A DNA stretch of 64,000 bases, from IMG/VR virus record IMGVR_UViG_3300049215_000223, positions 114,723 to 178,722 of that record; one strand, 5' to 3'. How positions within the stretch are numbered: the first letter of the stretch is position 1; each line of letters begins with the position of its first letter. The notes under the pieces were generated by a model that did no database searches, was not told the DNA's origin, and was given only the letters and a program-made list of their open reading frames with translations. Source of the DNA: a virus. Positions 45,604-63,765 of the stretch are shown one piece after another. Made by a program: the position numbers and the translations under genes.

Positions 45604-45618
45604 ATGTAATTATTACAT
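45604..45618. repeat. AT-rich inverted repeat at the patatin gene stop
   Basis: ATGTAAT-T-ATTACAT is a perfect 7+1+7 inverted repeat overlapping the stop codon of the patatin-like gene and lying upstream of the strongly translated 109-aa gene. A weak hairpin only; it may be an operator or nothing. Confidence 0.35.
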
Positions 45619-46473: not shown

Positions 46474-47201
46474 ATGTGACTCCACGATGTTCTCTTAATA
46501 ATACTACGTATCGTTTCATCGTGGACACCATATTCTTTTGATAATTTGACATACCCATATTTGCCAGGAATGTATTTGGATCTAATTTCTAGAACTTCTT
46601 TTTCTGTTAGTTTAGCCCGTGAACTTTTTTCACCAGTTTGAGCTTCGGACATTTTCTTTTTTGTTTCATCCGAAACAAATCGTCCTTTCATCATTTTTGA
46701 CAGATGGTCTTTTTCTTTTTGAGGTAGTTTTCGTCCCTTAGTATACTGATTGCCCTTATGAACATTTGATAAAAATCCAGGATTGTCCTGATGTCGTTTC
46801 TTCATCATATCTGATGATAGTTTTATCTTTTCTGGCTTGTTGGCAGCAGCAATCAACTTCTGCCTGGTCTCGGGACTTGGCGAAATACCTCCCTCACCGC
46901 CAAGATTGCAGTTGTATCCAAATTTTTTAAGGTTAGAACACGATAGTAAAATATACTGCGTCTCAGCTCGATAAGCCTCGTTCTCATCATCGAATTCATC
47001 TATAATTTTAAATATAAAATTATAGATGCCATACTTGTGTAAGGCGGCATGGATAGCAAAGAAGTCTTCTGGATATTTTTCCCGACCTCCAAGTGCTACT
47101 TTTTTGTGGTCATGCCATCTTACCGTTGGATTATTGGTTTTACCCACATATAATTTATTATTTATCTGGTTGATGACCACATAAACATAATACTTACTCA
47201 T
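46470..47201 (-). CDS. GIY-YIG homing endonuclease with NUMOD3 repeats
   Basis: 243 residues. The N-terminal nuclease has YYVYVVINQ and KLYVGKT as the GIY-YIG pair (about 4-21), Arg28 and Glu80 (AYRAETQYI) as expected active-site residues, then GYNCNLGGEGG. Downstream are NUMOD3-type DNA-binding repeats (SPETRQKLIAAAN, LSKMMKGRFVSDETKKKMSEAQTG) and a helix-turn-helix-like end (EKEVLEIRSKYIP ... YGVHDETIRSII). It is a typical free-standing SegA-like enzyme. It has a GGAGG Shine-Dalgarno and its stop overlaps the patatin-like gene start. It sits at the border of the sugar cluster and the accessory genes. Confidence 0.88.
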   Translation of the reverse strand: MSKYYVYVVINQINNKLYVGKTNNPTVRWHDHKKVALGGREKYPEDFFAIHAALHKYGIYNFIFKIIDEFDDENEAYRAETQYILLSCSNLKKFGYNCNLGGEGGISPSPETRQKLIAAANKPEKIKLSSDMMKKRHQDNPGFLSNVHKGNQYTKGRKLPQKEKDHLSKMMKGRFVSDETKKKMSEAQTGEKSSRAKLTEKEVLEIRSKYIPGKYGYVKLSKEYGVHDETIRSIIKRTSWSHI

Positions 47202-47239: not shown

Positions 47240-48031
47240 TTAATGAGGCAAATTCAGCAGATTGTGACAAGATTCTAGTATTTTAATGACTTTTATTGAT
47301 AAGTCTAAACCTAATCTATAATCTTTCTCCCCATCAATTGCTCTAATAAAGGTATTGAGGGCGTTTGTTAAAGGAGGAGAGTGATTAGGTGAGCGCATTT
47401 TATCATCATAGGCTATTTTAAGACCACCACACTCCACCTTTAGCTTCCTGACTGGCTTTTGCCCACCATTTCCTACAAGACTCTCTGCAGAAAAGGTTAC
47501 AAAATCTAATTTTATATTAAACAAACTTCCAGTATCAGTAGAAATTTGATTAGCTTGGATTCCAAATGGAAAAGTTCTAGTTAAATCTAAAATCATAGAT
47601 AAATCATGACAGCCATAATCCCAAAGACTAGAATAACTTCTAATGGGTCCATTGTTATAGCCTAACGAAACTATTTTATCAATAGTGTGTGGCTTAATCA
47701 TTCTTTGTAAATTTTGATAAGCAGTAGAGAAAAGATGAATATGATTAACAAGGATAGGTGCTGAGAATTTCTGTAGTATACTTGCCTCTGCAACTGATAG
47801 GCTGAGTGGTTTTTCTATCATAGTTGGAATGTCTTTTTCAAGAGAATAAGCCGCTAACTCTACATGAGACTCTGGTGGAGTGCATACCATTACACCATCG
47901 GGACGCTCATCTACAAGAGATTTCCAATTACTACGAGTAGCAACTTGTAATTTTACATTTGGAAATGCAGATAAAGTAGAGATATATTTTTGTCCCCATT
48001 TACCATTACCAATTAACAATAAATTTTTCAT
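47240..48031 (-). CDS. Gfo/Idh/MocA-family NAD(P)-dependent oxidoreductase
   Basis: 263 residues from the ATG at 48031, which overlaps the dehydratase stop as ATGA. A Rossmann nucleotide-binding motif GNGKWG is at 8-13, CTPPESHVELA near 50-60, and the family's EKPLS signature at 73-77. The C-terminal half is the alpha/beta catalytic domain with LWDYGCHDLSMILDL. These enzymes oxidise or reduce nucleotide-linked sugars, often producing or consuming 3-keto sugars. Shorter than many family members (about 330). It is last in the carbohydrate cluster, and translational coupling with the RmlB-like enzyme suggests successive steps on one sugar. Confidence 0.85.
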   Translation of the reverse strand: MKNLLLIGNGKWGQKYISTLSAFPNVKLQVATRSNWKSLVDERPDGVMVCTPPESHVELAAYSLEKDIPTMIEKPLSLSVAEASILQKFSAPILVNHIHLFSTAYQNLQRMIKPHTIDKIVSLGYNNGPIRSYSSLWDYGCHDLSMILDLTRTFPFGIQANQISTDTGSLFNIKLDFVTFSAESLVGNGGQKPVRKLKVECGGLKIAYDDKMRSPNHSPPLTNALNTFIRAIDGEKDYRLGLDLSIKVIKILESCHNLLNLPH

Positions 48032-48993
48032 AATTTGACTGAATCTAAATACCACTTATTGTTAAGATACCAATCAACACATTTATTCATGCCTGCATCA
48101 AAATCAAAACTTGGGAACCAGCCTAAATTGTGTATTTTGGCACAATCAACCGAGTATCTGAAATCATGTCCAGGACGGTCCTTGACAAAATTGACCACAG
48201 CACCTTCATTTCCAATTAATTTGGAAATTTTATGTACCATTTTAAGATTGGTGGACTCAATACCCGAACCAATGTTGTATGTCTCATTCAATGGAGCATC
48301 TTTTACAATCTTCATGATAGCAGAGCAATGATCCTCTACATAAATCCATTCACGGAACTGCTTTCCATTTCCATGGATAGGAATGGGCGTCCCGTTTAGT
48401 ATGCAGGAAATGGCTTTAGGAATTAAGTTACGGGGCGGTTGGCTAGGTCCGTAGTTATTGCAGCACCTGGTAATGTTATAATTTAAACCGTGAGTTTGGT
48501 TGGCTGCCTTAACAATTAGCTCCCCAGCTGCTTTAGATGCTGAGTATGGATTTCTAGGGCTGAGTGGAGACTTTTCGGTCCAAGATTCATCTTTGTCACT
48601 AGTTAGTTGTCCATATACTTCGTCAGTGCTAACATACACAAAACGCTCTACTCCATGTTTGAGTGCCAGGTCTACCATAACCTGCGTTCCAACAACATTG
48701 GAATGAATAAATGGTCCTGCACTTCTAATGGAATCGTCTACAAAACTTTCTGCTGCACCATGAATGATAATATCTGGCTTTTCAATGCTAAATACATTAT
48801 TCATAAACATTTCATCAGCAATGTCACCCATGTAAAAATTGTGGTCTTGATTAATTTCCACATTATAACGATTATATGGAGCAATTACTTTATCTACACT
48901 AACAAAATCGTAATAGGCAGTCTCTCGTATTACTTTTCTCATAAAATTAGAGAAAATGAATCCACATGAGCCTGTTACAAGTATTTTCTTCAT
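48028..48993 (-). CDS. NDP-sugar 4,6-dehydratase (RmlB-like extended SDR)
   Basis: 321 residues. Extended SDR features: Rossmann TGSCGFIF at 7-14, GDIAD near 56, GAAESFVDDSI near 79-89, VSTDEVYG with Thr123-Asp124-Glu125, and catalytic Tyr150/Lys154 in YSASK. The RmlB C-terminal signature DRPGHDFRYSVD is present. RmlB converts dTDP-glucose to dTDP-4-keto-6-deoxyglucose, the gateway to deoxysugars such as rhamnose and anthrose. Odd points: the third glycine of GxxGxxG is Phe14, and the usual AAESHVDRSI is AAESFVDDSI. It could therefore use a different nucleotide sugar. AAAGG lies before the ATG, 7 nt after the upstream stop. Confidence 0.87.
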   Translation of the reverse strand: MKKILVTGSCGFIFSNFMRKVIRETAYYDFVSVDKVIAPYNRYNVEINQDHNFYMGDIADEMFMNNVFSIEKPDIIIHGAAESFVDDSIRSAGPFIHSNVVGTQVMVDLALKHGVERFVYVSTDEVYGQLTSDKDESWTEKSPLSPRNPYSASKAAGELIVKAANQTHGLNYNITRCCNNYGPSQPPRNLIPKAISCILNGTPIPIHGNGKQFREWIYVEDHCSAIMKIVKDAPLNETYNIGSGIESTNLKMVHKISKLIGNEGAVVNFVKDRPGHDFRYSVDCAKIHNLGWFPSFDFDAGMNKCVDWYLNNKWYLDSVKL

Positions 48994-49000
48994 ATAACCT

Positions 49001-49915
49001 TTATATCAATTCAGCTAAAGCTTGTTCTATTGATCCAATATAGGTTTGATGATAGCCGTGATAACCATAATTGTGAGATGGATAGCTCTCATTTATTTTT
49101 TCTAAAGCTTGCTGAGGGGTCATATTATAACAGTATCTTAAAACCGCATATGCAAATGCTGGGCTACGTGAAGCTCCCATTTGGCAGTGCACATAGATGT
49201 TTTTATCCATGTTATTTTTAGAAAATAGCACTGCCTTTTTAACGACATCAAATGGAAATGGCGTACCATTATCTGGAACTTGAATTTCTAGAAGTTTATC
49301 AATTCCTTTACCAACATCAGAATGCTCTGTTTCAACGTTGATAACGGCGCCCATATTGTAGGCTTTTTGCAAATGTTCCCAGTCTTCTTTGCTTGTCACA
49401 CTGCCACCAACCATTATATTTGGCATGACCCAATATCTAGTAGCAGTAGGTGTGTTGATACAAACAGTATTAACGTATGTTTCAGCAATTCCAACATTAG
49501 CTTGTTTTAATCCAAGTATTGTTTTAATAAGATCATCGACTTGCCCTCTAATAACTTCTTCTTTCCCGGCTAGATGAGTGGCGCCCGCAGCCATCATGTT
49601 AGCATTATTCTGAGCAATTCCAGAAAAGGTAATTATTGGGATATCCTTCTTATTTTCTTTCATCCAAGCTATCAAATCAGCCCCATTGCCCTCAGGCATG
49701 TCATGATCTAAAATTACCAAATCAATTTTACAGCTGCTAATGATTGATGCGGCTGCCACAGCACCAGGTACAAAACTGAACTGAACTATTCCTTGAGTAT
49801 CAAATACCGAACTAAAATGTTCTGCTATTCTTTTTTGCTGTGTAAGATCATCCTCACAAACTAATACGTGCTTTTGTGGATAAGTCATCCTATTAACGTG
49901 TCTAAAATAAAACAT
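49001..49915 (-). CDS. Receiver domain fused to dual-specificity protein phosphatase
   Basis: 304 residues from the ATG at 49915 (AAAGGAAG Shine-Dalgarno; a TTG three bases earlier is unlikely). Residues ~15-135 are a response-regulator receiver: acidic pocket Glu21-Asp22-Asp23, phosphoacceptor Asp70 in VILDHDMPEG, Ser98 in ITFSG and Lys118 in AGKEE, all in place. Residues ~155-304 are a cysteine phosphatase: general acid Asp215 in VPD and the P-loop HCQMGASRS with Cys244 and Arg250. This is a two-domain regulator: phosphorylation of the receiver would switch a Tyr/Ser/Thr (or carbohydrate) phosphatase. No histidine kinase is in the window, so a host kinase may feed it. It overlaps the sugar methyltransferase stop (TGATG), inside the sugar operon. 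Confidence 0.88.
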   Translation of the reverse strand: MFYFRHVNRMTYPQKHVLVCEDDLTQQKRIAEHFSSVFDTQGIVQFSFVPGAVAAASIISSCKIDLVILDHDMPEGNGADLIAWMKENKKDIPIITFSGIAQNNANMMAAGATHLAGKEEVIRGQVDDLIKTILGLKQANVGIAETYVNTVCINTPTATRYWVMPNIMVGGSVTSKEDWEHLQKAYNMGAVINVETEHSDVGKGIDKLLEIQVPDNGTPFPFDVVKKAVLFSKNNMDKNIYVHCQMGASRSPAFAYAVLRYCYNMTPQQALEKINESYPSHNYGYHGYHQTYIGSIEQALAELI

Positions 49916-51111
49916 CAAACTTCCTTTAGTTCCGGAATTGGAACGATGAACTTGCCACCAAAATTGCGATGTCTTTCAATGATAGAATCGGCAAAATTCC
50001 ACGCTAAAACTAGAAGATAGTCAGGATGCTTAGCATAAATCATTTTAGTTGGGAAAACTGGAATGTGTTTGCCCGGTGTAAATGTTCCTTGCTTTAAAGG
50101 TGCATCATCCACAGCAAAATCAATCATATTTTCATCGATATTCAAAGCATACATGAGCGTGGTTGCTTTTGCTGGTACCCCATAGATGGCAATAGATTTT
50201 CCTTGTGACTTTAGCTCTTGTAATTTTTCTCTTAATTCATATCCAAGCAGCTTGATATCTTTTTGTAATCTAGCTACTTTATTTTCCATATAATATTTCG
50301 AATGAATAAAAGAGTCAAGACTCAAAGCAGAGTAATCTCCATATGCATTTTCAACATATACACGAATAGAGCCGCCATGATTAGTTATAGGCTCAATATC
50401 AAATACTTCCATTTGATATTGATTGAAAAATGATATTAGTGGTTTCACCGTATGATAACTGGTATGTTCATGATAAATAGTATCAAATAAAGTTTTATCA
50501 CATACATCGCCAAAATAAGATACTTCAAAAGTAAAAACTCCATTTGGTTTGAGAAGTTTTTTTACACCCTTTGCAAATCCAATCATATCGGGCACATGAG
50601 CAAACACATTGTTTGCTGTAATCAAATCAAATTGACCATATTTCTCCAGCATAACATCAGCATATTGTTCGGTAAAAAATTCCGCAATCGTCTCTATGCC
50701 ATTTTTAGTAGCTTTTTCGGCTAAATTTACAGCCGGGTCAATGCCAAGTATTTGCAAACCTAAATCTTTGAAGTGCTTCAATAAGGTACCATCATTGCTG
50801 GCGATATCTAGCACTTTACTATCAGATTGTAAATCAAATCTTTCAACCATTTGGAGGGCGTATTGTCTGAAATGTTCAACATTAACTGGAGATGTCCCAG
50901 CAACGAAAAGATAGTTTCTAAACATTCTTTCGGGCTCTACTTGCTCATTTAACTGATAGTGTTCACAAGACTCGCAAACACATACTTCCAGCGGAAACAA
51001 GTCCTGAGGCTCTTTAGTTTTTACAAACTCATTAGCAAGCGGAGTTTTCCCAAGATTTATCTTGGGCTCACTTAGTCTTCCCTTACACAGTCTGCATTCA
51101 AATACTTTCAT
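49915..51111 (-). CDS. Sugar C-methyltransferase (SAM-dependent, zinc-binding N-terminus)
   Basis: 398 residues. Cys6/Cys9 and Cys46/Cys49 form the zinc site of the Methyltransf_13 domain. SAM-binding motif VLDIASNDGTL is at 100-110, then GIDPAVNLA, and FDLITANNVFAHVPD. The catalytic region DTIYHEHTSYHT and NHGGSIRVYVE follow; the C-terminal third has a Rossmann-like IAIYGVPAKATTLMYAL part. This is the TylC3/NovU type that puts a methyl group on C-3 of a 4-keto-6-deoxy (TDP) sugar, giving branched sugars. Fits well downstream of an RmlB-type step. TAATG overlap with the cupin gene upstream. Confidence 0.9.
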   Translation of the reverse strand: MKVFECRLCKGRLSEPKINLGKTPLANEFVKTKEPQDLFPLEVCVCESCEHYQLNEQVEPERMFRNYLFVAGTSPVNVEHFRQYALQMVERFDLQSDSKVLDIASNDGTLLKHFKDLGLQILGIDPAVNLAEKATKNGIETIAEFFTEQYADVMLEKYGQFDLITANNVFAHVPDMIGFAKGVKKLLKPNGVFTFEVSYFGDVCDKTLFDTIYHEHTSYHTVKPLISFFNQYQMEVFDIEPITNHGGSIRVYVENAYGDYSALSLDSFIHSKYYMENKVARLQKDIKLLGYELREKLQELKSQGKSIAIYGVPAKATTLMYALNIDENMIDFAVDDAPLKQGTFTPGKHIPVFPTKMIYAKHPDYLLVLAWNFADSIIERHRNFGGKFIVPIPELKEV

Positions 51112-51530
51112 TAGAACTCCACGCGAACAACATCCTCTTCGTGATGCTCATGATCTCTGACATTCTTTGCAAAGCTCATCATCACGGTATCTTCTAAAAA
51201 CTCTGTTTTGTGAACTTTCATTGGTCCTGTAAATACCATTTCGCCTGCTTTTACAACAATAGGCTCAATTTGATTATCAGAGTCAACATCTCGCTCATAA
51301 TATTTCATAGAGCCAGAAATAACATATAAATAATGCCAATCAGTCTTATGATAATGATTCGATCTAACCGTTCCAGCTTTACTGGTAATGATTGCAACGC
51401 TAGTAATTGGATCTAGCACAAGATTTTGGATTTTGCCCCTAGCATCTTCGAATGGTTTATCCAATGGAACACGAAGTTCACTTGGAAATTTACCCTCATT
51501 AACTAAACTGGTATATTCTTTATTTTTCAT
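51111..51530 (-). CDS. Cupin-fold protein, sugar-modifying enzyme candidate
   Basis: 139 residues, a single cupin barrel. The metal/substrate motif RSNHYHKTDWHYLYVISG (His59, His61, His66) is followed by GEMVFTGPMKVHKTEF with His107, the second cupin motif. In sugar clusters this fold gives 3,5-epimerases, 3,4-ketoisomerases (FdtA/WxcM type) or bupicomide-like enzymes; which of these cannot be decided. It starts with TAATG overlap at the GT4 gene stop and ends with TAATG into the C-methyltransferase, so it is tightly coupled in the sugar operon. Note an acidic/His-rich end (DHEHHEED). Confidence 0.8.
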   Translation of the reverse strand: MKNKEYTSLVNEGKFPSELRVPLDKPFEDARGKIQNLVLDPITSVAIITSKAGTVRSNHYHKTDWHYLYVISGSMKYYERDVDSDNQIEPIVVKAGEMVFTGPMKVHKTEFLEDTVMMSFAKNVRDHEHHEEDVVRVEF

Positions 51531-52651
51531 TATATTTCCGGATATTTTTTGATTAGTGTTTCTAGTTTTTCAGCAATACTAGTCCAAGTATAGTTTAGAG
51601 AAAACTTCTTGCACTTATCTATAACTTCTGAACGATAAGATGAATCAGTTAATCCTTTAATTACTAAAGAATCAAATTCAGCCATATGTTCCCCAGCAGG
51701 AGACTTAACCATAGGTACTGTTCCTCCATAAATGCTTCCTAAACAATCGGCATCAGAAATAACAGGAAATACTCCAGCTGCACATGATTCCATTATTGAA
51801 ATGGAAAATCCTTCGGTAAACGCTACAGTTGAAACAGGATAAGCTAGTACCATAGCCTCACTCAATTCTTGTTCCATGCGTGCGCGACTAATAGAACCCA
51901 CATGCTCCACGCCCAATGGTTTCAGTCTTTTCATCATTTCCATCATGTATCTTGCTCTATTAGCAATTTCCTTTACATGTGGATGAGTATTTTGATCATT
52001 GAATTCAAGATTTTCTATATGGGAGTAGTTGAAATTATAGAATACTTTCAAATGAGCTTCTGGAACAGCTGCTTTAATTTTTGGCCATTCTTGTAATAGC
52101 AAATGAAGCCCACGATCAGCAGAAGACGTCCAAACTACTCTACCAGGAACTCTTGGTCCGTCTTTGTACCAAGATGGTTCACAGCCAAGAGGTAGCACAG
52201 TCCATTTCTTTGGGTCTGGAGCGGTTTTTTTAAGATGTTCCATATGCATTTGACATGGGGAACACCAAACATCAACAAAATCATCAAAGCCAGGCTTGCA
52301 GTAAGTAAAATCATTTAACATCTGATTGCAAATACGAAGAGGCTTCTTAGATATTCCTCGAAGAGCGTCTGGTTCGTTCCAACTGATAACGGCATCCCAA
52401 TCTGGCTTAATGACTGTTGCAGCATCTTCGAAATTATATAGCTTAACGCCTTCCCATGATTCTAGCTTGTTAGCTGGGTCAGTATGGAAAGTAAACAGAG
52501 AAACCTCATGTCCACGTTTAACCATTTCTTTTGCAATAATGGCAATGCCAAGATCGCTGCCAGTCAAGCCTCTGGAACTTGTCCAAAGCTCTTTAAAATC
52601 TAGCGGTCTGTTGCCAGCTCCCCAAGGACTGAATAAGAAAGCAATCTTCAT
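51530..52651 (-). CDS. GT4-family glycosyltransferase
   Basis: 373 residues with GT-B layout. The N-terminal domain begins MKIAFLFSPWGAGN. The hinge/nucleotide-sugar part has WTSSADRGLHLLLQEWPKI near 174-192, and the EX7E-type motif is TEGFSISIMESCAAGVFPV with Glu280 and Glu288, the usual retaining GT4 active site. Donor and acceptor unknown. Its C-terminal domain resembles the C-terminal GT4 domain of the giant protein encoded just upstream (also PDRSWPVLLDVWPEI), so one may be a relative of the other. Start overlaps that gene's stop (ATGA). Confidence 0.87.
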   Translation of the reverse strand: MKIAFLFSPWGAGNRPLDFKELWTSSRGLTGSDLGIAIIAKEMVKRGHEVSLFTFHTDPANKLESWEGVKLYNFEDAATVIKPDWDAVISWNEPDALRGISKKPLRICNQMLNDFTYCKPGFDDFVDVWCSPCQMHMEHLKKTAPDPKKWTVLPLGCEPSWYKDGPRVPGRVVWTSSADRGLHLLLQEWPKIKAAVPEAHLKVFYNFNYSHIENLEFNDQNTHPHVKEIANRARYMMEMMKRLKPLGVEHVGSISRARMEQELSEAMVLAYPVSTVAFTEGFSISIMESCAAGVFPVISDADCLGSIYGGTVPMVKSPAGEHMAEFDSLVIKGLTDSSYRSEVIDKCKKFSLNYTWTSIAEKLETLIKKYPEI

Positions 52652-55600
52652 TTCGTATACTCTTTCGTTGGTTGATATGGAATGACAGGATTAGATTTTT
52701 TAGAATCTATTAACTGTTCAAACATCTTTCCCCAGTCTGATGCTAATATATCCAGGCTAAAATGTTCTTTAGCATATTGTTGAAGTGCAACTCGGTCGCT
52801 ATTGTCTTCCTTTTGAAGTGCTGCAACTACAGAATCTACAAACTTTTTCTTATACTCTGGTGTGGTCCAATCCCCATCAATTCTAACACCCCTATCAGCA
52901 ATGGTTTCATTAAGCGCAGCAATGCTTGATGTAATAGGTCTTAAACCAGCTGCTTGGACTTCCATTCCAGTAATACAAGAGGTCTCGGAGAACCAAGTTG
53001 GATAAATCCATGCGCCAGCAGACAGGAATTCTTCTGCCAATTTTTCCTGGGTCACTCTATCATGATAGACAACTCCTTGACCTTCCAAATCCTTTATTTG
53101 TTGTTTTAATCTATTAATCAAATCCATATGTCCTGGCTGATATTGAGCTGAAAATTCCCAATTTTTGAAACCATAATACAAGTGTAATTCGGCTTGAGGA
53201 ACTTTTGCTTTAATTTCTGGCCAAACATCTAATAGAACTGGCCAAGATCTATCTGGACTACTAGAATTAACAGTTTTGAATCTGTTTCTTGGAACGGACT
53301 TTTCAAATCTAGACAAATTAATACCATTTCTAGTTACTAAGATGTGTTCTGGATGAACATTATGATAACTAATCAGAAATTGCTTATGCCATTCTGAAAG
53401 GGCAAGAATCTTATCTGCCTTTAGTAGTAATTTATTAGATGCATTGATTGCAAATACATCATGAACCCAAAGTAACTTTAGGCTGGCTTGGATGTTGTAT
53501 TTATCATCCAACATATCGGCGCGGCGAGACACAACTAGTACGTCACACTTAAGATCTTGGAACTTGTTAGTGAATCTATATTCGACACCATCATAAATTC
53601 CTTCTCCATTTTTGCCGCAGCTATTATATGCCCTAACTTTGTGACCCAGCGCTGCTAAACGTTTAGTCATTTCTATAGCCATTAGTTCGCTGCCACCAAT
53701 GCCAGTTTTCTTAACTGTTTCTGGTGTCCACTGCTCAACTCCATCACCGATGAAGAATACGATATCAAGTCCAGGATAGTTTGATGGCGGCTTAACGCAA
53801 GCCTCTGCGAAAATGTTTCCCTGATCCTCGACACTCTTAAAGCTATCTGCACACAAGTCAGCATAACTATTTTTGACCCAATAACCTGCCTTTTGGAAAT
53901 CAGCAGCAACTGTCCAAGGTGTAGGGGCAATTAAGTGTGCTCTTGGAGTGACTTTCAGCCAGCTCTCTCCGGTATGCGTCCAATTCCAAGGATGTGCCCA
54001 AGGGATATATTGTCCACGCATCCACGCACCATATGGCGTTGCAAGCAAAAATGTACCATCTTCCTTGAGCATTTTCTTGGCAGGAACAAACATTTCTTTT
54101 ACTGGGTCTTTTATGTGCTCATAGGTATCAGTACTTGTTGCGTAATCGAAAGAATGTGCAGGAACCTTATTCTCTGCCTCACTAAAATAGGTGTGAATGT
54201 GTTGCGCACCAGTGTTGAATTCAGCCGCCTTTCTATTGGCTAATTTGACCGTGTGATCACAGCCATCTAATCCAACTGGTTTGTGTCCTGCCATGCCATA
54301 ACGGTTTGTGAAACAGCCATCCATGCTACCAAAGTCTACTATTGAGGAACTTGGCTTCATATGAGCCATCATCAAATCAAAACGATGTGCTTCGGCAGAA
54401 TCTCTTAATTGAAGTGGTAATGGAGTTCCAGCCTCTCTATCTAAACCTGGAGAGTTCACTTTCTCAAATGCTTCGTCTGTTCCCATCCATTCGAGACATC
54501 CCTTAGTAAGACTTAGGGCTTTCTCTGTTGCAACCGAGTGGCGTACATTATATGGCGCATTTTCTAAGAATGAAATGGCTGACAACACTTCATCATGTAA
54601 CATGTATTGTTTCCAAATCATGATGACTGCTGCTTGCAGCTGTTCATCTGTCATCTTAATTGGGAAACCAGAAAAATCATATGTGTTCGGGATAGCCCAC
54701 TCTTGTCCATTAGAGGTTGTGCCAGCTATTGGAAACTGATTATCTACAACAACTGGAGTGCTACCAGTTGGAGGCGTACTATTTATCAAATTACCAGGCA
54801 CTGGAAGATTGTTTATGATGGCAGAAACAGCTTCAACTGAGGCTTGATTTATCGTACCGTTGTCCCTCATAGCTCCAAGAAACTTAACGATTTCTTGGCG
54901 TGCCAAGAAATCTTCATATAATTTTCTGTTGTTAGCCAACATTGTGTCATTAGGTTGCTTTTGCAAGGCAATCATAACACTAGCCAGAGCAGCTTTGACA
55001 TCACCTATCTTATTAAGTGCTAAATTTAAGTATTTATGTATGTCAACTTCTCTTTCATTTGGATTGACAAACAATAAAGTTTTGGTAGGAGGCAATCTTA
55101 GACCAGTTCTTGCAAAATGAACGCAGCGCTCCCAATTTCTTCTTTCATTGGGTCCTCCAGCTGATGCTAAGTGATAAAACATTTTAGCTAAAGCGAAATA
55201 ACCCTCACCCCAATTTTCTTGAATAGCAACAGTTTTGAATGCCCACTTGAGCCCATTTTCCCAATCACCTCTAGCATAGTAAATATCTACTAACTTTAGG
55301 CATGCCATGGCGCGCTCGTCGTCCCATCCAGAAATATCTACATACTTTGAAAGATGACCAATGGCTTCATCGATTAATCCAGCATTACAGCACTCAAGAC
55401 CAAGATAATACATTTGGCGAGCATCACTGCCACCAACTTCCTCAAAATATTTTCTTAAAATACGTAGATTACGACCGGGCTCTGGCGCTTTTGGACTATA
55501 TTGACGATTATGTTTCCATATAATATCTTCTCTAGTAACTAAAGAAACTCTAGCGCCCTCATTTGGTACAGCAACTTCATGCACTGGTCCAAGCCATCGG

Positions 55601-56052
55601 AAAAACTTCTTATTAGAGAATACTCTTTCTCTGTAATGTAAACATGTACATCGATTATTTGCATCATATGCATACTCATATGGAAATAAATAAGAAATTG
55701 CATCTAATTCTGAATTAGATTTTTCGAAATCTTCAATTATTTGATGTAAATTTTCAATTCCAACAATAGTATCATCAGCATCAGCCCACATAACCCATTT
55801 TTTGGTTGCTAAATCAAAAGAGCGCTGACGTGCCTTAGAAAAATTTGCAATTAATCCTGTTTGAGGATCATTACAGTCTCTATAAACTTCAAAAATATTC
55901 GCGTATCTCTTAGCAACTTCTGGGGTATTGTCAGTAGAGCCAGTATCTACTATTACAATTTCTTCCACATAATCACGAATAGATTTTAGACAATTTTCTA
56001 AAAGGGGCTCGTTTTTAACGATGATGCAGACACTTACATTGGCTTTAGGCAT
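52648..56052 (-). CDS. Giant GT2-TPR-methyltransferase-GT4 glycan-assembly protein
   Basis: 1134 residues with four recognisable parts. (1) A GT2 GT-A glycosyltransferase at 1-200 with SVCIIVKNE, VDTGSTDNT and metal-binding DADD at 91-94. (2) A TPR-like helical array at about 210-390 (MYYLGLECCNAGLIDEAIGHL, LVDIYYARGDWENGLKW). (3) A SAM methyltransferase at about 560-730 (VDFGSMDGCFTNRYG, GLDGCDH, YATSTDTYEHIKDP, LLATPYGAW). (4) A GT-B/GT4 glycosyltransferase at about 760-1105 (GIGGSELMAIEMTKRLA, VTRNGINLSRF, ETSCITGMEVQAAGLRP). Two transferases and a methylase in one chain would build and methylate a short glycan, with the TPR holding the acceptor or partner proteins. It heads the sugar cluster behind its own promoter. 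Confidence 0.88.
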   Translation of the reverse strand: MPKANVSVCIIVKNEPLLENCLKSIRDYVEEIVIVDTGSTDNTPEVAKRYANIFEVYRDCNDPQTGLIANFSKARQRSFDLATKKWVMWADADDTIVGIENLHQIIEDFEKSNSELDAISYLFPYEYAYDANNRCTCLHYRERVFSNKKFFRWLGPVHEVAVPNEGARVSLVTREDIIWKHNRQYSPKAPEPGRNLRILRKYFEEVGGSDARQMYYLGLECCNAGLIDEAIGHLSKYVDISGWDDERAMACLKLVDIYYARGDWENGLKWAFKTVAIQENWGEGYFALAKMFYHLASAGGPNERRNWERCVHFARTGLRLPPTKTLLFVNPNEREVDIHKYLNLALNKIGDVKAALASVMIALQKQPNDTMLANNRKLYEDFLARQEIVKFLGAMRDNGTINQASVEAVSAIINNLPVPGNLINSTPPTGSTPVVVDNQFPIAGTTSNGQEWAIPNTYDFSGFPIKMTDEQLQAAVIMIWKQYMLHDEVLSAISFLENAPYNVRHSVATEKALSLTKGCLEWMGTDEAFEKVNSPGLDREAGTPLPLQLRDSAEAHRFDLMMAHMKPSSSIVDFGSMDGCFTNRYGMAGHKPVGLDGCDHTVKLANRKAAEFNTGAQHIHTYFSEAENKVPAHSFDYATSTDTYEHIKDPVKEMFVPAKKMLKEDGTFLLATPYGAWMRGQYIPWAHPWNWTHTGESWLKVTPRAHLIAPTPWTVAADFQKAGYWVKNSYADLCADSFKSVEDQGNIFAEACVKPPSNYPGLDIVFFIGDGVEQWTPETVKKTGIGGSELMAIEMTKRLAALGHKVRAYNSCGKNGEGIYDGVEYRFTNKFQDLKCDVLVVSRRADMLDDKYNIQASLKLLWVHDVFAINASNKLLLKADKILALSEWHKQFLISYHNVHPEHILVTRNGINLSRFEKSVPRNRFKTVNSSSPDRSWPVLLDVWPEIKAKVPQAELHLYYGFKNWEFSAQYQPGHMDLINRLKQQIKDLEGQGVVYHDRVTQEKLAEEFLSAGAWIYPTWFSETSCITGMEVQAAGLRPITSSIAALNETIADRGVRIDGDWTTPEYKKKFVDSVVAALQKEDNSDRVALQQYAKEHFSLDILASDWGKMFEQLIDSKKSNPVIPYQPTKEYTK

Positions 56053-56075
56053 ATCTTTCCTTGATTATGAAATAG

Positions 56076-56140
56076 AGTCAGTCCGATATAATGTATTATA
56101 TCATCAAAATTAAGCGCTTACCAATTGTATCGGACTGTCT
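56076..56140 (-). promoter_or_regulatory. Promoter flanked by a 13-bp inverted repeat (glycan cluster)
   Basis: On the minus strand an extended -10 TGATATAAT (TATAAT at 56095-56100) is preceded after 18 nt by a TTGGTA -35 (56119-56124). Arms at 56076-56088 and 56128-56140 (AGTCAGTCCGATA and TATCGGACTGTCT, one mismatch) flank the promoter, and a TAAGCGCTTA palindrome (56111-56120) lies in the spacer. This layout suits a regulated promoter for the downstream sugar genes; the outer arms could also fold as a transcript hairpin after the glycine-rich gene. Confidence 0.55.
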
Positions 56141-56147
56141 GTTCTAT

Positions 56148-56927
56148 TTAGTAAATAAGATAAAGATAACCTGAACCACCATTTCCGCCTTTGCCGCCAA
56201 TTAGCGTAGTTCCGTCGCTTCCTGCACCGCCGCCGCCTGCACTGCTGTTTGATGCTGCATCGATGCCATTACCATTAGTAATTCCTGCGCCGCCATTTCC
56301 ACCAATACCTTTAGGACCTGCACCACCACCGCCACCGTAACAGCCTCCGTCATGTCCACCCATACCAGCTGCAAATGTACCAAGAAAATTCATCATTCCA
56401 TTAACGCTTGGTGCTGAGCCAATTCCAGAAATAAGGCTACTGCCAGCGCCGCCGCTGCCAGGAAAAGTATAAAATGTTTCGCCGCCAGCTGATATTACAC
56501 TTTTAATATAGGTATCAAAACCATTAGATTTTGCAAATGGCGTTCCACCATACATTGGTGATAAACTATAATCTTGAGTTTCTGATCCAGCACCACCACC
56601 ACCCAACGCATTGAATCTTATGACGGAAAGTGAGTTAACTATTGTAGTAGAATATCCGTCTCCCCCATAGCCACTGAATAAATTACTTCCATCATAATAT
56701 CCGCCAGCTCCTCCTGCCCCAATGTTGATAGTATAAACTTTCCCAGAAGTAACTGATAAATAGTCAGATTGTTGTAAGGCAGCGCCACCACCGCCGCCGC
56801 CGCCCCAGGCTGAGGAGCCGCCGCCGCCTCCTCCTGCACCTCCAGCTCCAACTACTAAAACATTAGTTATTCCTCCTGGACAAGTCCAAGTTCCGTGGCT
56901 TGAAAAATAAACAGTTGTAAATGGCAT
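56148..56927 (-). CDS. Glycine-rich fiber-tip/adhesin-like protein
   Basis: 259 residues, starting MPFTTVYFSSHGTWTCPGGITNVLVVGAGG, the typical entry strand of phage 'glycine-rich domain' fiber proteins. Over a third of residues are Gly, in blocks such as GGGGGGSSAWGGGGGGG and GGCYGGGGGAGPKGIGGNGG, ending YLYLIY. Such proteins fold as bundles of polyglycine-II helices, known from the adhesin gp38 of T-even-type phages, which determines receptor choice. It follows the collagen-like fiber gene and may cap it, or act as a separate adhesin or chaperone. The GGGAG Shine-Dalgarno is clear. Similar Gly-rich sequence ends the 531-aa fiber at 36332. Confidence 0.83.
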   Translation of the reverse strand: MPFTTVYFSSHGTWTCPGGITNVLVVGAGGAGGGGGGSSAWGGGGGGGAALQQSDYLSVTSGKVYTINIGAGGAGGYYDGSNLFSGYGGDGYSTTIVNSLSVIRFNALGGGGAGSETQDYSLSPMYGGTPFAKSNGFDTYIKSVISAGGETFYTFPGSGGAGSSLISGIGSAPSVNGMMNFLGTFAAGMGGHDGGCYGGGGGAGPKGIGGNGGAGITNGNGIDAASNSSAGGGGAGSDGTTLIGGKGGNGGSGYLYLIY

Positions 56928-56988
56928 GTAATCTCCCGCTCGATTGGTAGCTTAAATTAATATATTTAATTATACCTATAAATATTAA
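56928..56988 (-). other. Very AT-rich intergenic gap after the collagen gene
   Basis: 61 bp of nearly pure A/T with several overlapping short palindromes (TTAAAT...ATTTAA, TAATTA). It could act as a weak terminator for the collagen-like gene; no clear GC stem is present. Confidence 0.3.
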
Positions 56989-59900
56989 TTAGCCAACACA
57001 CTGTAAGAAGAACATGCTTCCAGTTGGTGATACGGCTAATCCAGTAGCGATAGCTGCACCAACTTTTCTATAATATGTTTCAATACTAGTTCCAGAAGGA
57101 ATATATACTATGTAGCTTTTATCTAGTGATTGAACATTTGTATTTGAAGTATTAGTTAAATAAGCAAGAGATTGCGCAATTGGAGTTCCTGATCCATATC
57201 CAAATTGTCCGTTTCCACCAGTAGCTCCTAAGAATTGTGTAACTTCAACTGCTACTCCACTTGGCATTCCAGTAAAAGCAACACTATAGTTAACTTCCCA
57301 GTATCCAGATTTTTGAACAGTAATCCATCCTGCTGCCGTTCCAATAGTAGTATGTCCAAGTAATCCTTGAAGATATTGCGCGCTATTCCATTGAATCATA
57401 CCACCAGATGCTCCTGCACCAGAAGCATTTAAGTTAGCACCAGTTACACCAACTTGAACGAAATCATTTAGGGAGTTTATATTAATGGTATTTGCTGGAC
57501 CGGTTGTACCTAACAATCCACCAAGCAAGTTAATGTTAGCAGTTCCAGCATTTATAAGAGAGCCGCCAGCATAAATAGGCACGCTGGTAGTTGCTACACC
57601 ATAGTCACTTACAATTCCCCATTGAGTTCCATTGTAACCAAAGTAATAAGATGCATACGGTTTAGTGATCACGAATGTGGTAGCTGCATCAATATTTTTT
57701 CCGTTACCAGAAACAGTAATATTGAATGTTCTAGCGCTACCCAAAGCATCCTTAACACCATAGGTATCTCCAATAGTTGGATTATCTGGCAATGTAATTG
57801 TAATTGCTTGTGTCAATGGTCCGACTGCAATCAAATAATCATTAACGTTAATAGTATAGTTGGCAGTCTTAATATTAGAGTAATAAGCCATTGTTTGTGG
57901 CTTTCTCCAACCGCCGTTCGTTGCATCGTATACATATCCAAAATCTTGTGACACTGCATTCTGTCCCGCAACCATTACTTGAACACCAGTTGTTGGAACC
58001 ATGAAAGTATAGGACGCACCAGGTGCATTGCTGTTCATCTGAACAATTTGTCCCGTTTTGTTAGCAAATGAACCAGTTGGTAAATATGATGTAGGATTTC
58101 CTCTTGGACCAGTGGCTCCAATAACAAAAATTTGACCGGTCTGAATTATAGACCCAGTAATATCGGTCCATCCAGAGGCGCCTACTGCAGAATAACCGAA
58201 CTGAAGTAAATGTCCATCCATTCCAGTCCAACCACCTGTAGCACCAGAAGCAACAAGATATGTATCTAAGAAGTTTGGTCCAGTAGGTGCGGCATTATAA
58301 TTATCACCCAAAATGTGGATTGATAGAACAGGAGAAACGAAACCCGAAGGAACGTTAGTTAATAACGAGCCAGGAGTACCGGCAGGTCCTTGAGGTCCCG
58401 TAGCTCCCTGAGGTCCTGTTGGACCTTGAGGTCCTGTAGGTCCTGTAGCGCCGATAGTGCCAGTTGGACCTTGTGGTCCTGTAGGTCCTGTAGCGCCGAT
58501 AGTGCCAGTTGGACCTTGTGGTCCTGTAGGACCCGTAGCTCCTATAGTTCCTGTTGGACCTTGAGGTCCAGTAGGTCCTGTCGCACCAATAGTTCCGGTT
58601 GGACCTTGAGGTCCTGTAGGTCCAGTAGCTCCTATAGTTCCGGTTGGACCTTGTGGTCCTGTAGGACCCGTAGCTCCTATAGTTCCTGTTGGACCTTGTG
58701 GTCCTGTAGGTCCTGTCGCACCAATAGTTCCTGTTGGACCTTGAGGTCCTGTAGGACCCGTAGCTCCTATAGTTCCTGTTGGACCTTGAGGTCCAGTAGG
58801 TCCTGTCGCACCAATAGTTCCTGTTGGACCTTGAGGTCCTGTAGGTCCAGTAGCTCCTATAGTTCCGGTTGGACCTTGTGGTCCTGTAGGTCCTGTAGCT
58901 CCAATGGTTCCAGTTGGTCCTTGTGGACCTGTTACGCCAGTTACTCCTGGTACACCATCTGGAGATATAAAGGCTGCAGATACCAAACTTCCAACAGGAA
59001 TATTAACTCCGCTGATTCCAAGATTCTGCAAACTGAATGTTGGAACAGAACCAGATGCGACAACATAAGCGCCGCCAGATGGAATGAACACATATTGACC
59101 AATCTGCATCCAATATGCGGAAGGAACTTGTATTGCTATAGCTGCACCTACAGCTGGTTGAGTGAAACCTGCAGAAGTAGAGTAAGCGTTTATTCCCGGA
59201 TTACCTGTTGCACCAACACTTCCTGTTGGACCTTGAGGTCCAGTAGGTCCTGTTGCACCAACACTTCCTGTTGGACCCTGAGGTCCGGTAGGTCCAGTAG
59301 CTCCTATAGTTCCGGTTGGACCTTGAGGTCCAGTAGGTCCAGTAGCTCCTATAGTGCCAGTTGGACCTTGTGGTCCTGTAGGTCCTGTAGCGCCGATAGT
59401 GCCAGTTGGACCTTGTGGTCCTGTAGGTCCTGTCGCACCAATAGTTCCTGTTGGACCTTGAGGTCCTGTAGGACCTGTAGCTCCAATGGTTCCAGTTGGT
59501 CCCTGTGGACCTGTTACACCAGTTACTCCTGGTATCCCGTCTGGGGATACAAAGCTTGCAGCAACTGTACTGCCTACAGGAATGTTTACACCAGACAATC
59601 CAAGATTCTGAATCGAGAAGGTTGGAACTGCACCTGATGCTACTACATAAGCTCCACCACTTGCGATAAAAACATATTGTCCTACCTGCAGCCAATAAGC
59701 AGAAGGAATCTGAATTGCTATAGCAGCACCAACAGCAGGCTGTGTGAAACCAGCAGAGGTTGAATAAGCATTAATACCTGGGTTGCCTGTAGCACCTATG
59801 GTGCCAATTGGTCCTTGAGGACCTGTTGGACCTGTAGTGCCTATTGAGCCGGTTGCACCAGCAGGACCTGTTGGACCTGTTGCTCCAACGCTGCCAGTTG

Positions 59901-62900
59901 GTCCTTGAGGACCTGTTGGACCTGTAGTGCCTATTGAGCCGGTTGCACCAGCAGGACCTGTTGGACCTGTAGCACCTATGGTGCCAGTTGGTCCTTGAGG
60001 ACCTGTTACGCCGGTAACGCCAGGGATACCATCAGGAGAAACAAATGATGCAGCAACTGTACTGCCTACAGGAATGTTTACGCCAGATAGTCCAAGATTT
60101 TGAATAGAGAAAGTTGGCACTGCACCCGAGACTACTACATAAGCGCCTCCAGAAGCAATGAAGACGTGCTGTCCAACTTGCAACCAATAAGCAGATGGAA
60201 CTTGTATTGCTATAGCTGCACCTACAGCTGGTTGAGTGAAACCTGCAGAAGTAGAGTAAGCGTTTATTCCCGGATTACCTGTTGCACCAACACTTCCTGT
60301 TGGACCCTGAGGTCCGGTAGGTCCAGTAGCGCCGATAGTGCCAGTTGGACCCTGAGGTCCGGTAGGACCTGTTGCACCAACACTTCCTGTTGGACCCTGA
60401 GGTCCGGTAGGACCTGTTGCACCAACACTTCCTGTTGGACCTTGAGGTCCTGTAGGTCCAGTAGCTCCTATAGTTCCGGTTGGACCTTGAGGTCCTGTAG
60501 GTCCAGTAGCTCCTATAGTTCCGGTTGGACCTTGAGGTCCAGTAGGTCCAGTAGCTCCTATAGTGCCAGTTGGACCTTGTGGTCCTGTAGGTCCTGTAGC
60601 GCCGATAGTGCCAGTTGGACCTTGAGGTCCAGTAGGTCCAGTAGCTCCTATAGTTCCTGTTGGACCTTGTGGTCCTGTAGGTCCTGTCGCACCAATAGTT
60701 CCTGTTGGACCCTGAGGTCCTGTAGGACCTGTTGCACCAACACTTCCTGTTGGACCTTGTGGTCCTGTAGGTCCTGTCGCACCAATAGTTCCGGTTGGAC
60801 CTTGAGGTCCAGTTGGACCCGTTACGCCAGTAGCTCCTGCTACTCCTCCTGGAGAAACAAACGCAGCAGCAACTGTGGATCCTACCGGAATATTTACACC
60901 AGAGTAACCTAAATTCTGTAGCGAGAAGGTTGGCACACTGCCAGAAGCAACAACATAATATCCACCAGAAGGGATAAATACATATTGACCTTGCTGCATC
61001 CAATAACCACTTGGCACTTGAATTGCAATTGCAGCTCCAACAGCAGGTTGAGTGAAACCTGCAGAAGTAGAGTATGCATTAATGCCTGGCGCTCCAGTTG
61101 GTCCGGTTGCTCCAATTGATCCAGTTGGACCAACAGATCCTGTTGGACCCTGAGGTCCAGTAGGTCCTGTCGCACCAATAGTTCCCGTTGGACCTTGAGG
61201 TCCTGTAGGACCAGTAGCGCCGATAGTGCCTGTTGGACCTTGAGGTCCTGTAGGACCAGTAGCGCCGATAGTGCCTGTTGGACCTTGAGGTCCTGTAGGA
61301 CCCGTAGCTCCTATAGTTCCGGTTGGACCTTGAGGTCCGGTAGGTCCAGTAGCTCCTATAGTTCCCGTTGGACCTTGAGGTCCTGTAGGACCTGTAGCAC
61401 CAATAGTTCCTGTTGGACCTTGAGGTCCTGTAGGACCTGTAGCTCCAATGGTTCCGGTTGGACCTTGAGGTCCTGTAGGACCAGTAGCGCCGATAGTGCC
61501 TGTTGGACCTTGAGGTCCTGTAGGACCCGTAGCTCCTATAGTTCCGGTTGGACCTTGAGGTCCTGTAGGTCCTGTCGCACCAATAGGTCCTGTCGCACCA
61601 ATAGTTCCTGTTGGACCTTGAGGTCCTGTAGGTCCTGTCGCACCAATAGTTCCGGTTGGACCTTGAGATCCTGTTACGCCAGTAGCGCCTGCAACTCCTC
61701 CAGGTGATACAAAGGCAGCAGCGACTGTAGATCCGACTGGAATGTTGACGCCAGAATATCCAAGATTCTGTAAACTAAATGTTGGCACAGATCCAGAAGC
61801 TACTGTGTAATAACCGCCAGATGGAATAAATACATATTGACCAGCCTGCATCCAATAGGCAGATGGAATCTGAATAGCAATAGCTGCACCTACTGCAGGT
61901 TGAGTAAATCCTGCCGAAGTAGAGTAAGCATTGATACCTGGTGCACCCGTTGGTCCTGTGGCGCCTATAGTGCCTGTTGGACCTTGAGGACCTGTTGGTC
62001 CCGTAGTGCCTATTGAGCCGGTTGGACCTTGAGGACCTGTTGGTCCTGTAGCTCCTTGCGGACCAGTTGGTCCTGTAGCACCTATAGTTCCAGTTGGACC
62101 TTGAGGACCTGTTGGTCCTGTAGCACCTATAGTTCCAGTTGGACCTTGAGGACCTGTTGGTCCTGTAGCTCCTTGCGGACCAGTTGGTCCTGTAGCACCT
62201 ATAGTTCCAGTTGGACCTTGAGGACCTGTTGGACCTGTAGTGCCTATAGTTCCAGTTGGACCTTGCGGACCAGTTGGTCCTGTAGTGCCTATTGAGCCGG
62301 TTGGACCTTGAGGACCTGTTGGTCCTGTAGCGCCTTGAGGACCAGTAGGACCTGTTGCTCCAATGGTGCCAGTTGGTCCTTGAGGACCTGTAGGACCCGT
62401 AGTTCCTTGTATACCAGTTGCTCCCGTCGCTCCTGCTACTCCTCCTGGAGAAATAAAGGCGGCTGCAACAGTACTACCAACTGGAATGTTAACGCCAGAA
62501 TAACCTAAGTTTTGTATCGAGAAGGTTGGTACACTTCCAGAGGCTACAACATAGTATCCACCACTTGGGATAAAGACATATTGACCTTGTTGCATCCAGT
62601 AGCCGCTTGGGACTTGAATAGCTATTGCTGCACCAACAGCTGGCTGAGTGAAGCCTGCCGAAGTAGAATAAGCATTGATTCCTGGCGCTCCTGTAGGACC
62701 CGGTGATCCTTGTGAGCCGCCACCAGCTGGACCAGTTGGACCTTGTGCGCCAGTTGGACCTTGAGGACCAGTTGGACCTGTTGCTCCTTGTGGACCTCCA
62801 GGACCTGTAGCTCCAGTTAATCCTGTTGGTCCTGCGATACCTGCTGGTGATAAGAATGCTGGATTGATTGCACTACCAACTGGTGCATTTCCTTGATAAC

Positions 62901-63765
62901 CAAGATTTTGGAGAGTAAGTGTTGCGCCTGCAGCAGTTGCTATTTGATAATAACCACCACCAGATACGAAGACTGTTTGTTGATTTTGTGCCCAACCAAT
63001 TCCGGTTGCGATACTAATAATAACAGTAGTTCCAACTAGTGGCTGAATGAATGTTGGCGTATTAGAAAAAGCATTGACACCAGCAGGACCTGTTGCACCT
63101 TGAGGACCAGTTGCTCCCGCAGGACCTGTAGGTCCGGTTGCTCCAACACTTCCTGTTGGTCCTGTAGCACCAATAGTTCCGGTTGGACCTTGAGATCCTG
63201 TAGGTCCAGTAGCTCCTATAGTTCCTGTTGGACCGATTGATCCAGTTGGACCTTGTGCTCCCGTAGTACCAACACTTCCTGTTGGACCTTGAGGTCCTGT
63301 AGGTCCAGTAGCTCCTATAGTTCCTGTTGGACCGATTGATCCAGTTGGACCTTGTGCTCCCGTAGTACCAACACTTCCTGTTGGACCTTGCGGTCCTGTA
63401 GGACCCGTAGCTCCTATAGTTCCGGTTGGACCTTGAGGACCTGTTGGTCCTGTAGCACCAATAGTTCCTGTTGGACCGATTGATCCAGTTGGACCTTGAG
63501 GTCCGGTAGGTCCGGTTGCACCAGCAGGACCTGTTGGACCTGTAGGTCCCTGAGGTCCTGCAGTACCAGTTGCTGAGGTGTTAATTAGAATATCAGCAGT
63601 AATGCCTGTTCCAACAGTGGTTACACCATTACCATGAAAATTGATTGAATCAAATAGTCCGAGAGTAACACCGTTATTTAGAACGTAAATTCCAGACGAA
63701 ACACCGCCGCCACCATCAGAACCTGATGGCACTCCTTTGATTTGGCTGGCGTTTATTTTACTCAT
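56989..63765 (-). CDS. Collagen-like fiber protein with interrupting modules and C1q/TNF-like C-terminus
   Basis: 2258 residues. Residues 1-60 are a short attachment region. From about 68 to 1795 the protein is collagen-like: Gly-X-Y triplets, mainly [15 protein letters not shown] in a 15-residue unit, with Thr in most Y positions. Seven ~85-residue modules ([16 protein letters not shown], [15 protein letters not shown], [18 protein letters not shown]) break the rod. The last ~450 residues are beta domains, ending at about 2110-2258 in a C1q/TNF-like head ([32 protein letters not shown]) that would nucleate trimers. Threonine-rich GPT collagen of BclA type is known to be O-glycosylated, and a glycan cluster lies directly downstream. 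No hydroxylase is needed if Thr supplies stability. AAGG Shine-Dalgarno. Confidence 0.9.
58380..63560 (-). repeat. 45-bp collagen minisatellite with seven dispersed ~265-bp modules
   Basis: The coding DNA is a long run of 45-bp units (15 residues) with changing third bases, interrupted by modules at about 58937-59200, 59520-59785, 60015-60275, 60830-61092, 61680-61940, 62430-62690 and 62840-63085. The first-translated module (62840-63085) is the most divergent; the other six are near copies. Such arrays can expand or contract by recombination, changing fiber length. Assembly errors are also possible here. Confidence 0.85.

Follow-up and report, generated by a model that had tools for sequence, protein, structure and literature searches.

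A phage gene cluster that may glycosylate its own collagen-like fibre with a 3-C-methylated deoxysugar

Introduction

Peptide S-glycosyltransferases of the SunS/ThuS type, known from the SPbeta prophage and its relatives, consist of a GT2 glycosyltransferase domain followed by TPR-like helices, and their acceptor is a Cys of a small bacteriocin. Here we describe a gene cluster from the final 64 kb of a 178,722-base virus record (IMG/VR record IMGVR_UViG_3300049215_000223, positions 114,723 to 178,722; this stretch of 64,000 nucleotides is called the window), in which an enzyme of the same GT2-TPR layout stands downstream of a gene for a collagen-like fibre and at the head of a set of sugar-pathway genes. 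SunS and ThuS are its best structural match over both domains, at 16-20% sequence identity; unlike them, it is fused to a GT4 glycosyltransferase and, in some lineages, to a methyltransferase. We judge it fairly probable that the cluster is a cytoplasmic system with which the phage glycosylates its own virion protein, with the collagen-like fibre as the most likely main acceptor.

Several other described systems share part of this design (PMC numbers refer here to excerpts of the papers). Listeria GmaR, which transfers N-acetylglucosamine to flagellin, also has a GT2 domain followed by TPR and is the best sequence match in the PDB; its TPR part has been proposed to recognize and bind the polymeric flagellin (PMC9638930). 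GmaR differs in being an anti-repressor as well, and it is not known to have a GT4 partner or a neighbouring sugar pathway. Glycosyltransferases encoded by mycobacteriophages act on subunits of the capsid and the tail tube (Freeman 2023, as cited in PMC12619734), although the citing excerpt mentions no C-methylated deoxysugar pathway and no collagen partner. Mimivirus L230, a collagen lysyl hydroxylase/glucosyltransferase, shows a virus glycosylating its own collagen-like protein (PMC9614988). It acts on hydroxylysine, whereas the Lys share of both X and Y positions in the window collagen is 0.00, and the chemistry must therefore differ.

Among cellular proteins, BclA of the Bacillus exosporium resembles the window collagen in its GPT-rich sequence, and its collagen region is glycosylated (PMC8968730, PMC9614988). 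The window cluster, by contrast, has C-methylation and no aminotransferase, and a kinship between the heads of the two proteins would be conjecture. The TylC3 and TcaB9 enzymes, which serve antibiotic sugars, match the window C-methyltransferase over its full length and share its Zn-type Cys motif and YHEH-type motif, but the window enzyme sits in a phage fibre operon. Phage virion glycosylation and mimivirus collagen glycosylation are thus already known (PMC12619734, PMC9614988), and what appears new here is the combination of a phage collagen with an adjacent operon that is dedicated to a C-methyl sugar and includes a SunS-like transferase. Phage glycosyltransferases have mostly been read as acting on host lipopolysaccharide or phage DNA (PMC7029224, PMC10202952), and a search of open-access literature that lacks most subscription journals returned no paper connecting sugar operons with collagen fibres of phages.

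A SunS-like enzyme family is often encoded near virion genes

Residues 1-441 of the giant enzyme gave a predicted model (pLDDT 83.6) with a GT-A domain and a TPR solenoid, its TPR-like helices running from residue 194 to 413. The TPR part is clear in this predicted structure and reached merely E 0.0066 in Pfam (TPR_P4H). In a Foldseek search with the model, ThuS/SunS chains take the first six places (E 1.5e-16 to 6e-13), followed by the teichoic acid enzyme RmlT (1.2e-8). Alignment with VIA-align gave Z scores of 23.9, 23.2 and 23.2 for SunS/ThuS, the first for SunS 7msp (271 residues, 2.6 A), and 16.0 for the next glycosyltransferase, WrtF; human O-GlcNAc transferase aligned in the TPR part with a Z of about 15, as helical repeats commonly do. 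By sequence, a PDB search with amino acids (aa) 1-441 found GmaR as the best glycosyltransferase at E <= 0.01 (1.4e-17, to its GT domain), then ThuS-like, SunS and GalT1, along with designed and consensus TPRs. The DAD at residues 91-93 is a DXD-type metal site; its first Asp is shared by all five sequences of an alignment, and its second by the three close ones among them. BFVD shows the GT2-TPR fold to be widespread among phages and giant viruses.

As far as the model can tell, these matches suggest that the GT2-TPR module acts on a polypeptide acceptor. The acceptor class is suggested rather than proved, because polysaccharide-type GT2 models of NCBIfam score similarly weakly on the giant enzyme, and teichoic acid and O-antigen enzymes appear at lower ranks of the Foldseek search. 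That the TPR part could hold the repetitive fibre, as an earlier reading made from the sequence alone (the sequence-only reading) proposed, has a counterpart in print in the proposal for GmaR (PMC9638930).

Gene neighbourhoods were compared for the best 80 of 94 viral relatives of the enzyme, with flanks of up to 10 kb, many of them cut by contig ends. Relatives were sorted, after inspection of the list, into a close tier (>450 bits), a middle tier of more distant full-length relatives (at least 145 bits and a span >550) and a distant tier (the rest). A collagen open reading frame (ORF), counted at a minimum of 10 consecutive triplets, lies 1 to 8 genes upstream, in the same orientation, in 7/8 close loci (6/7 distinct proteins, as L065 and L066 carry the same one). 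The count falls to 0/30 in the middle tier and, with collagen accepted anywhere in the locus, is 6/42 in the distant tier; Fisher's test of 7/8 against 0/30 gives p 6e-7 with relatedness ignored. A search of related phages for such co-occurrence, which the sequence-only reading had suggested as a check, thus finds the collagen gene near the enzyme in the close tier and not in the middle one.

In the middle tier, the gene coupled to the glycosyltransferase is that of another virion protein. Relatives of a major capsid protein, sought with two query families only, lie upstream on the same strand in 22/30 loci (2 genes away in 14, 3 in seven and 5 in one), as against 0/8 close and 2/42 distant loci. 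When three upstream neighbours were scanned against PHROG, phrog_1328, major head protein, was assigned to 21 of 90 proteins; the count for these 90 includes several families of major head protein, which may overlap on one protein. No major head family occurs among the 25 families listed, of 50, for 89 downstream neighbours, where several glycosyltransferases, methyltransferases and virion proteins are listed. The middle-tier enzymes form 28 clusters at 80% identity and are therefore not one phage counted thirty times, though their loci likely descend from one arrangement.

Because a peptide-glycosyltransferase-like enzyme is encoded near collagen in one branch and near a capsid gene in another, action on virion proteins is the best explanation for this family, and the proposal that the phage glycosylates a virion polypeptide of its own is now the best reading of the locus. 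A first genome scan for relatives found none. Near bacterial GT2-TPR genes, a flagellin motif picked out flagellin-like starts in 3/33 genome loci, which is too few to serve as evidence, and the 0/80 viral loci are an unfair control. Phage GroEL genes also stand beside GT2-TPR enzymes, among 6/90 upstream neighbours in the middle tier as well as at L016:5640-7208 and ctf1B273.

Collagen is retained in most close-tier loci while other fibre genes change

The collagen-bearing loci share a common plan. In a 428-kb record, a 1005-aa collagen is followed by a 252-aa ORF, a GT2-TPR-GT4 enzyme (911 aa, no internal methyltransferase), two methyltransferases, a GT4, and then cupin, C-methyltransferase, dehydratase, a 206-aa ORF, Gfo/Idh oxidoreductase and a patatin-like ORF. 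A third lineage (G001/G002) starts with collagens of 2349 and 318 aa, a pectate-lyase-like ORF, a GT2-TPR-GT4 enzyme (66-67% identical), a GT4 and a methyltransferase. It continues with two ORFs of fibre or virion character and two of epimerase type, after which come cupin, C-methyltransferase, receiver-phosphatase, dehydratase, Gfo/Idh and patatin-like genes, and its fibre-like genes lie inside the sugar operon (L057:7976-9687). In the 394-kb record of L071, two collagens precede a full-length GT2-TPR-methyltransferase-GT4 enzyme (47% over 1142 aa), a GT4, cupin, C-methyltransferase, a different dehydrogenase-type ORF, Gfo/Idh and a patatin-like ORF. Collagen is likewise upstream of the enzyme in the shorter contigs L069 and L068.

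The window collagen contains 398 Gly-X-Y triplets, with Thr at Y in 224 (56%) and with GPT (134), GAT (73) and GPQ (66) as the commonest, which bears out the sequence-only reading's description of a GPT/GAT-type collagen with Thr in most Y positions. The further use of this character as BclA-type support does not hold: Thr occupies 48.3% of Y positions in collagens of Gram-positives and 31.6% in those of all bacteria (PMC8968730), and the fraction ranges from 0.33 to 0.57 in relatives of the fibre. We dropped Thr at Y as evidence for glycosylation. A C1q/TNF-like head, also part of that reading, was not recovered: the head has no Pfam match and one irrelevant match (E 0.062) in a PDB sequence search, and an AlphaFold model from two sequences (pLDDT 35) merely hints at beta structure. 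The non-collagen C-terminal part spans about 450 aa, and the last 158 aa of the protein match nothing among 50,697 phage records.

Seven aligned 77-aa inserts of non-collagen sequence, absent from the sequence-only reading, break up the collagen (57000-63073). The insert domain recurs in other large-phage contigs (L022-L026), where it is 79-100% identical, and in Nodularia phages at about 45%; a Nodularia phage protein carrying it was rejected as a collagen, with 5 counted triplets only. The window's record holds a second collagen-like ORF outside the window (G000:C1:80605-80760, in an open frame of 706 aa).

An unlikely alternative is that the enzymes glycosylate a different virion protein (the Gly-rich protein encoded between collagen and giant enzyme, another fibre, the capsid or the tail tube) and that the collagen is a mere neighbour in a variable fibre module. 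The capsid genes and missing collagen of the middle tier speak for it, as does the gene between collagen and enzyme, which differs in every lineage. Close relatives nevertheless keep the collagen gene in 7/8 loci while other fibre genes change, and none of the 8 close loci has a capsid relative, within the narrow set of two query families.

Further observations weigh against glycosylation of the collagen, the reading that we favour. The collagen-bearing lineages are not independent, because their downstream tail genes are syntenic, and this synteny partly reflects descent; with variable fibre genes between collagen and enzyme, the glycan acceptor may be another fibre protein. Nor is collagen a universal partner of the enzyme family, since the middle-tier partner is a capsid gene. 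Within the close tier, L070 has the glycosyltransferase pair and the C-methyltransferase with no collagen ORF in the 18 kb covered, and a scan of eight L070 proteins gave no match to a virion family. C-methyltransferase clusters of megaphages (L007-L009) have no collagen nearby, although 2 of these 3 records have collagen elsewhere; the 634-kb phage LR745206, with a distant C-methyltransferase cluster, has no collagen match in its whole record. Other distant relatives stand beside replication and nucleotidyltransferase genes (Tunturi_5) or among mixed genes (PaBG). The giant enzyme scores 34.1 bits against a cut-off of 350 in the SunS equivalog TIGR04195, which makes it SunS-like and no true SunS, and a Thr-rich collagen is ordinary in bacteria. 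RmlA is present in 2/5 related records and absent from the window's own, which is a fragment. For clusters without collagen, a point that the sequence-only reading had raised against itself and that these data barely touch, L070 and LR745206 are cases in point.

The accompanying enzymes point to a 3-C-methylated deoxysugar

From end to end, the C-methyltransferase resembles D-mycarose 3-C-methyltransferase (4rv9, E 2.5e-74) and TcaB9 (E 1.3e-58). In an alignment that includes TylC3 and TcaB9, its C6, C9, C46 and C49 and its Y213-H214-E215-H216 are invariant in three lineages; we take the former to be Zn cysteines and the Tyr-x-Glu-His to be the active site. The dehydratase scores 350.5 bits with TIGR01181, narrowly under the equivalog cut-off of 365.1, and its TDE and YxxxK motifs are invariant in three aligned relatives. 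Family assignment is less exact for the cupin and for the Gfo/Idh protein (relatives 34-45% identical) than for these two enzymes. In the 642-kb megaphage LR756502, one 867-aa ORF (L007:13633-16236) matches dehydratase (23%), cupin (34%) and C-methyltransferase (38%), and the three therefore belong to one pathway.

Because the C-methyltransferase is TylC3/TcaB9-like, the sugar is probably 3-C-methylated and not anthrose. The anthrose pathway needs aminotransferase and acylation genes, and the Pfam hits of the cluster proteins include neither family, although the contig is a fragment and such genes could lie elsewhere. An anthrose-like sugar is unlikely because no aminotransferase is among these results. 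This alters the sequence-only reading, which had compared the sugar with anthrose.

Gene content and order, the fold and family of the GT2-TPR module, the class of the C-methyltransferase and of the dehydratase, and the repeated proximity to virion genes are observed; substrate, acceptor, linkage and sugar we infer as follows. An RmlA-like enzyme encoded elsewhere in the genome, or the host, would supply deoxythymidine diphosphate (dTDP)-glucose; RmlA-like and RmlD-like genes are adjacent in the 193.5-kb record G006 and in the 428-kb record G005, distant from the operon. The RmlB-like enzyme would form the 4-keto-6-deoxy sugar, which the cupin, as a putative keto-sugar epimerase or isomerase, would epimerize or isomerize. 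After methylation at C-3 by the TylC3-like enzyme, Gfo/Idh reduction would give a nucleoside diphosphate (NDP)-3-C-methyl-6-deoxyhexose, the likely product of the pathway. The giant enzyme would combine first-sugar transfer with extension and methylation: the TPR solenoid may grip the fibre chain, unfolded or repetitive as it is, so that the GT2 domain can attach the first sugar straight to Ser or Thr, presumably of the collagen itself, the fused and free GT4 enzymes may extend the glycan, and the fused methyltransferase may O-methylate it.

Neither the fused nor the free GT4 part matched anything at E <= 0.01 in PDB sequence searches. Relatives of the free GT4 are 37-56% identical and adjoin relatives of the giant enzyme; its E-X7-E motif is present in the window and L006, and in L057 the second Glu is Gln. 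The methyltransferase domain is mobile, lying inside the giant enzyme in the window (52648-56052) and in L071:9998-13423 and being absent from the enzyme of L057:2846-5335, while L006:13557-14804 is a separate 415-aa methyltransferase ORF with apparent flanking pieces of the fusion.

The same enzymes might instead change host surface glycans late in infection, blocking superinfection or the re-adsorption of progeny to debris. This is the usual published reading for glycosyltransferases in the pelagimyophage fibre region (PMC7029224). It also fits the large glycan clusters of the megaphage loci L007-L009 and a cyanophage cluster with many glycosyltransferases, both of which contain distant C-methyltransferase relatives, and the 685-aa pectate-lyase-like ORF in G002, which implies contact with polysaccharide. 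We find it improbable, since peptides are the acceptors of the enzymes closest in structure to the GT2-TPR module. The cluster moreover has no membrane-spanning enzyme (19-residue Kyte-Doolittle values <1.6 for all enzymes and 1.76 for the receiver-phosphatase), a weak point: as a test of host-surface against virion roles this does not discriminate, because the megaphage clusters also come without membrane-spanning proteins.

With virion glycosylation as the preferred reading, a broader proposal can be made tentatively, with more doubt than conviction: GT2-TPR-GT4 enzymes may be widespread, dedicated virion-protein glycosyltransferases of tailed phages, with the TPR choosing the target (capsid in small phages, collagen fibre in jumbo phages) and with a 3-C-methyl deoxysugar pathway added in the jumbo branch, which would make it the first known case of a phage producing a branched sugar for its collagen. 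Should virion proteins be the substrates of this family, sugar-coated capsids or fibres would occur in many environmental phages, with a bearing on adsorption, decay and immune recognition. The operon would then also be a self-contained soluble enzyme set for glycosylating recombinant collagen with a rare sugar.

The cluster is a compact operon in the tail region

Nine ORFs, all on the minus strand, fill positions 47240-63765 (Table 1), forming a packed glycan operon downstream of the collagen gene and within the tail region. The sequence-only reading had the coordinates and gene order of this block right; the ninth ORF is the Gly-rich gene, probably encoding a virion or fibre accessory. From the giant enzyme through GT4, cupin and C-methyltransferase to the phosphatase, successive ORFs overlap by 4, 1, 1 and 4 bases; the dehydratase ORF starts 7 bases after the phosphatase ORF and overlaps the Gfo/Idh ORF by 28. 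The window ends 235 bases upstream of the collagen start codon. In the near-identical record G006, in which 11 compared proteins from collagen to the patatin-like ORF are 100% identical, the collagen gene is complete and has two more ORFs upstream. Contractile-tail genes, including sheath (25630-28437) and baseplate wedge (4180-8292), lie on the minus strand of the window.

Table 1. Features of the collagen and glycan block, in window coordinates
Feature	Position	Strand	Length (aa)	Family evidence
Collagen-like fibre protein, candidate glycan acceptor	56989..63765	minus	2258	Pfam Collagen E 1.5e-153
Gly-rich protein, second candidate acceptor	56148..56927	minus	259	Pfam Gly_rich_2 E 2.7e-13; weak phrog_863 tail fibre assembly E 2e-4
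Giant enzyme, GT2 (GT-A)-TPR-methyltransferase-GT4	52648..56052	minus	1134	Pfam GT2, methyltransferase, GT4
Second GT4-like glycosyltransferase	51530..52651	minus	373	Pfam GT4 E 1.1e-5, bits just below cut-offs
Sugar cupin	51111..51530	minus	139	Pfam Polysacc_synt_C and Cupin_2; 43-65% identical in relatives
Sugar 3-C-methyltransferase, TylC3/TcaB9 type	49915..51111	minus	398	Methyltransf_13, _23 and _14, all over Pfam cut-off
Receiver domain fused to dual-specificity phosphatase	49001..49918	minus	305	Pfam Response_reg and DSPc
dTDP-glucose 4,6-dehydratase-like, RmlB type	48028..48993	minus	321	Pfam NAD epimerase/dehydratase; PDB 2hun E 1.9e-80
Gfo/Idh/MocA sugar oxidoreductase	47240..48055	minus	271	Pfam E 1.9e-10; PDB 3c1a E 5.8e-21
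Patatin-like ORF, end marker of block	45613..46485	minus		48-59% identical at same place in three related lineages; no PHROG match

Glycosyltransferases of other phages are known to modify DNA, and PMC12619734 cites DNA hypermodification by such enzymes of viruses. For the present operon such a role is hardly credible, given its place in the tail region and the resemblance of its first enzyme to peptide glycosyltransferases. The thymidylate synthase of the record, moreover, has the Asn of true thymidylate synthases in its PFN motif, the position at which hydroxymethylases differ from them.

The receiver-phosphatase, possibly with a control role, retains the receiver Asp and the CX5R motif in the two copies that were aligned and matched nothing in the 50,697 phage records. 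Its relatives lie inside the sugar operon in the window, in the third lineage (G002; L057:13293-14204) and at L069:12537-12819; none was found in the 428-kb record's cluster, in L006 or in L071, and the L068 contig ends at the enzyme. The ORF that closes the block, which we take to be patatin-like, was named on sight from its sequence with no search behind the name, and is probably outside the sugar pathway.

A promoter scan gave 58 promoter-like sites against 45.3 +/- 6.2 in shuffles. One of them, TTGGTA-18-TATAAT with an extended -10 at 56124-56095, stands just before the giant gene, though against this background it proves nothing. ORFs resembling GIY-YIG or other endonucleases occur in and beside the operon, at 46470-47201 in the window, L006:18496-19116, L069:3525-4352 and L069:7732-8511.

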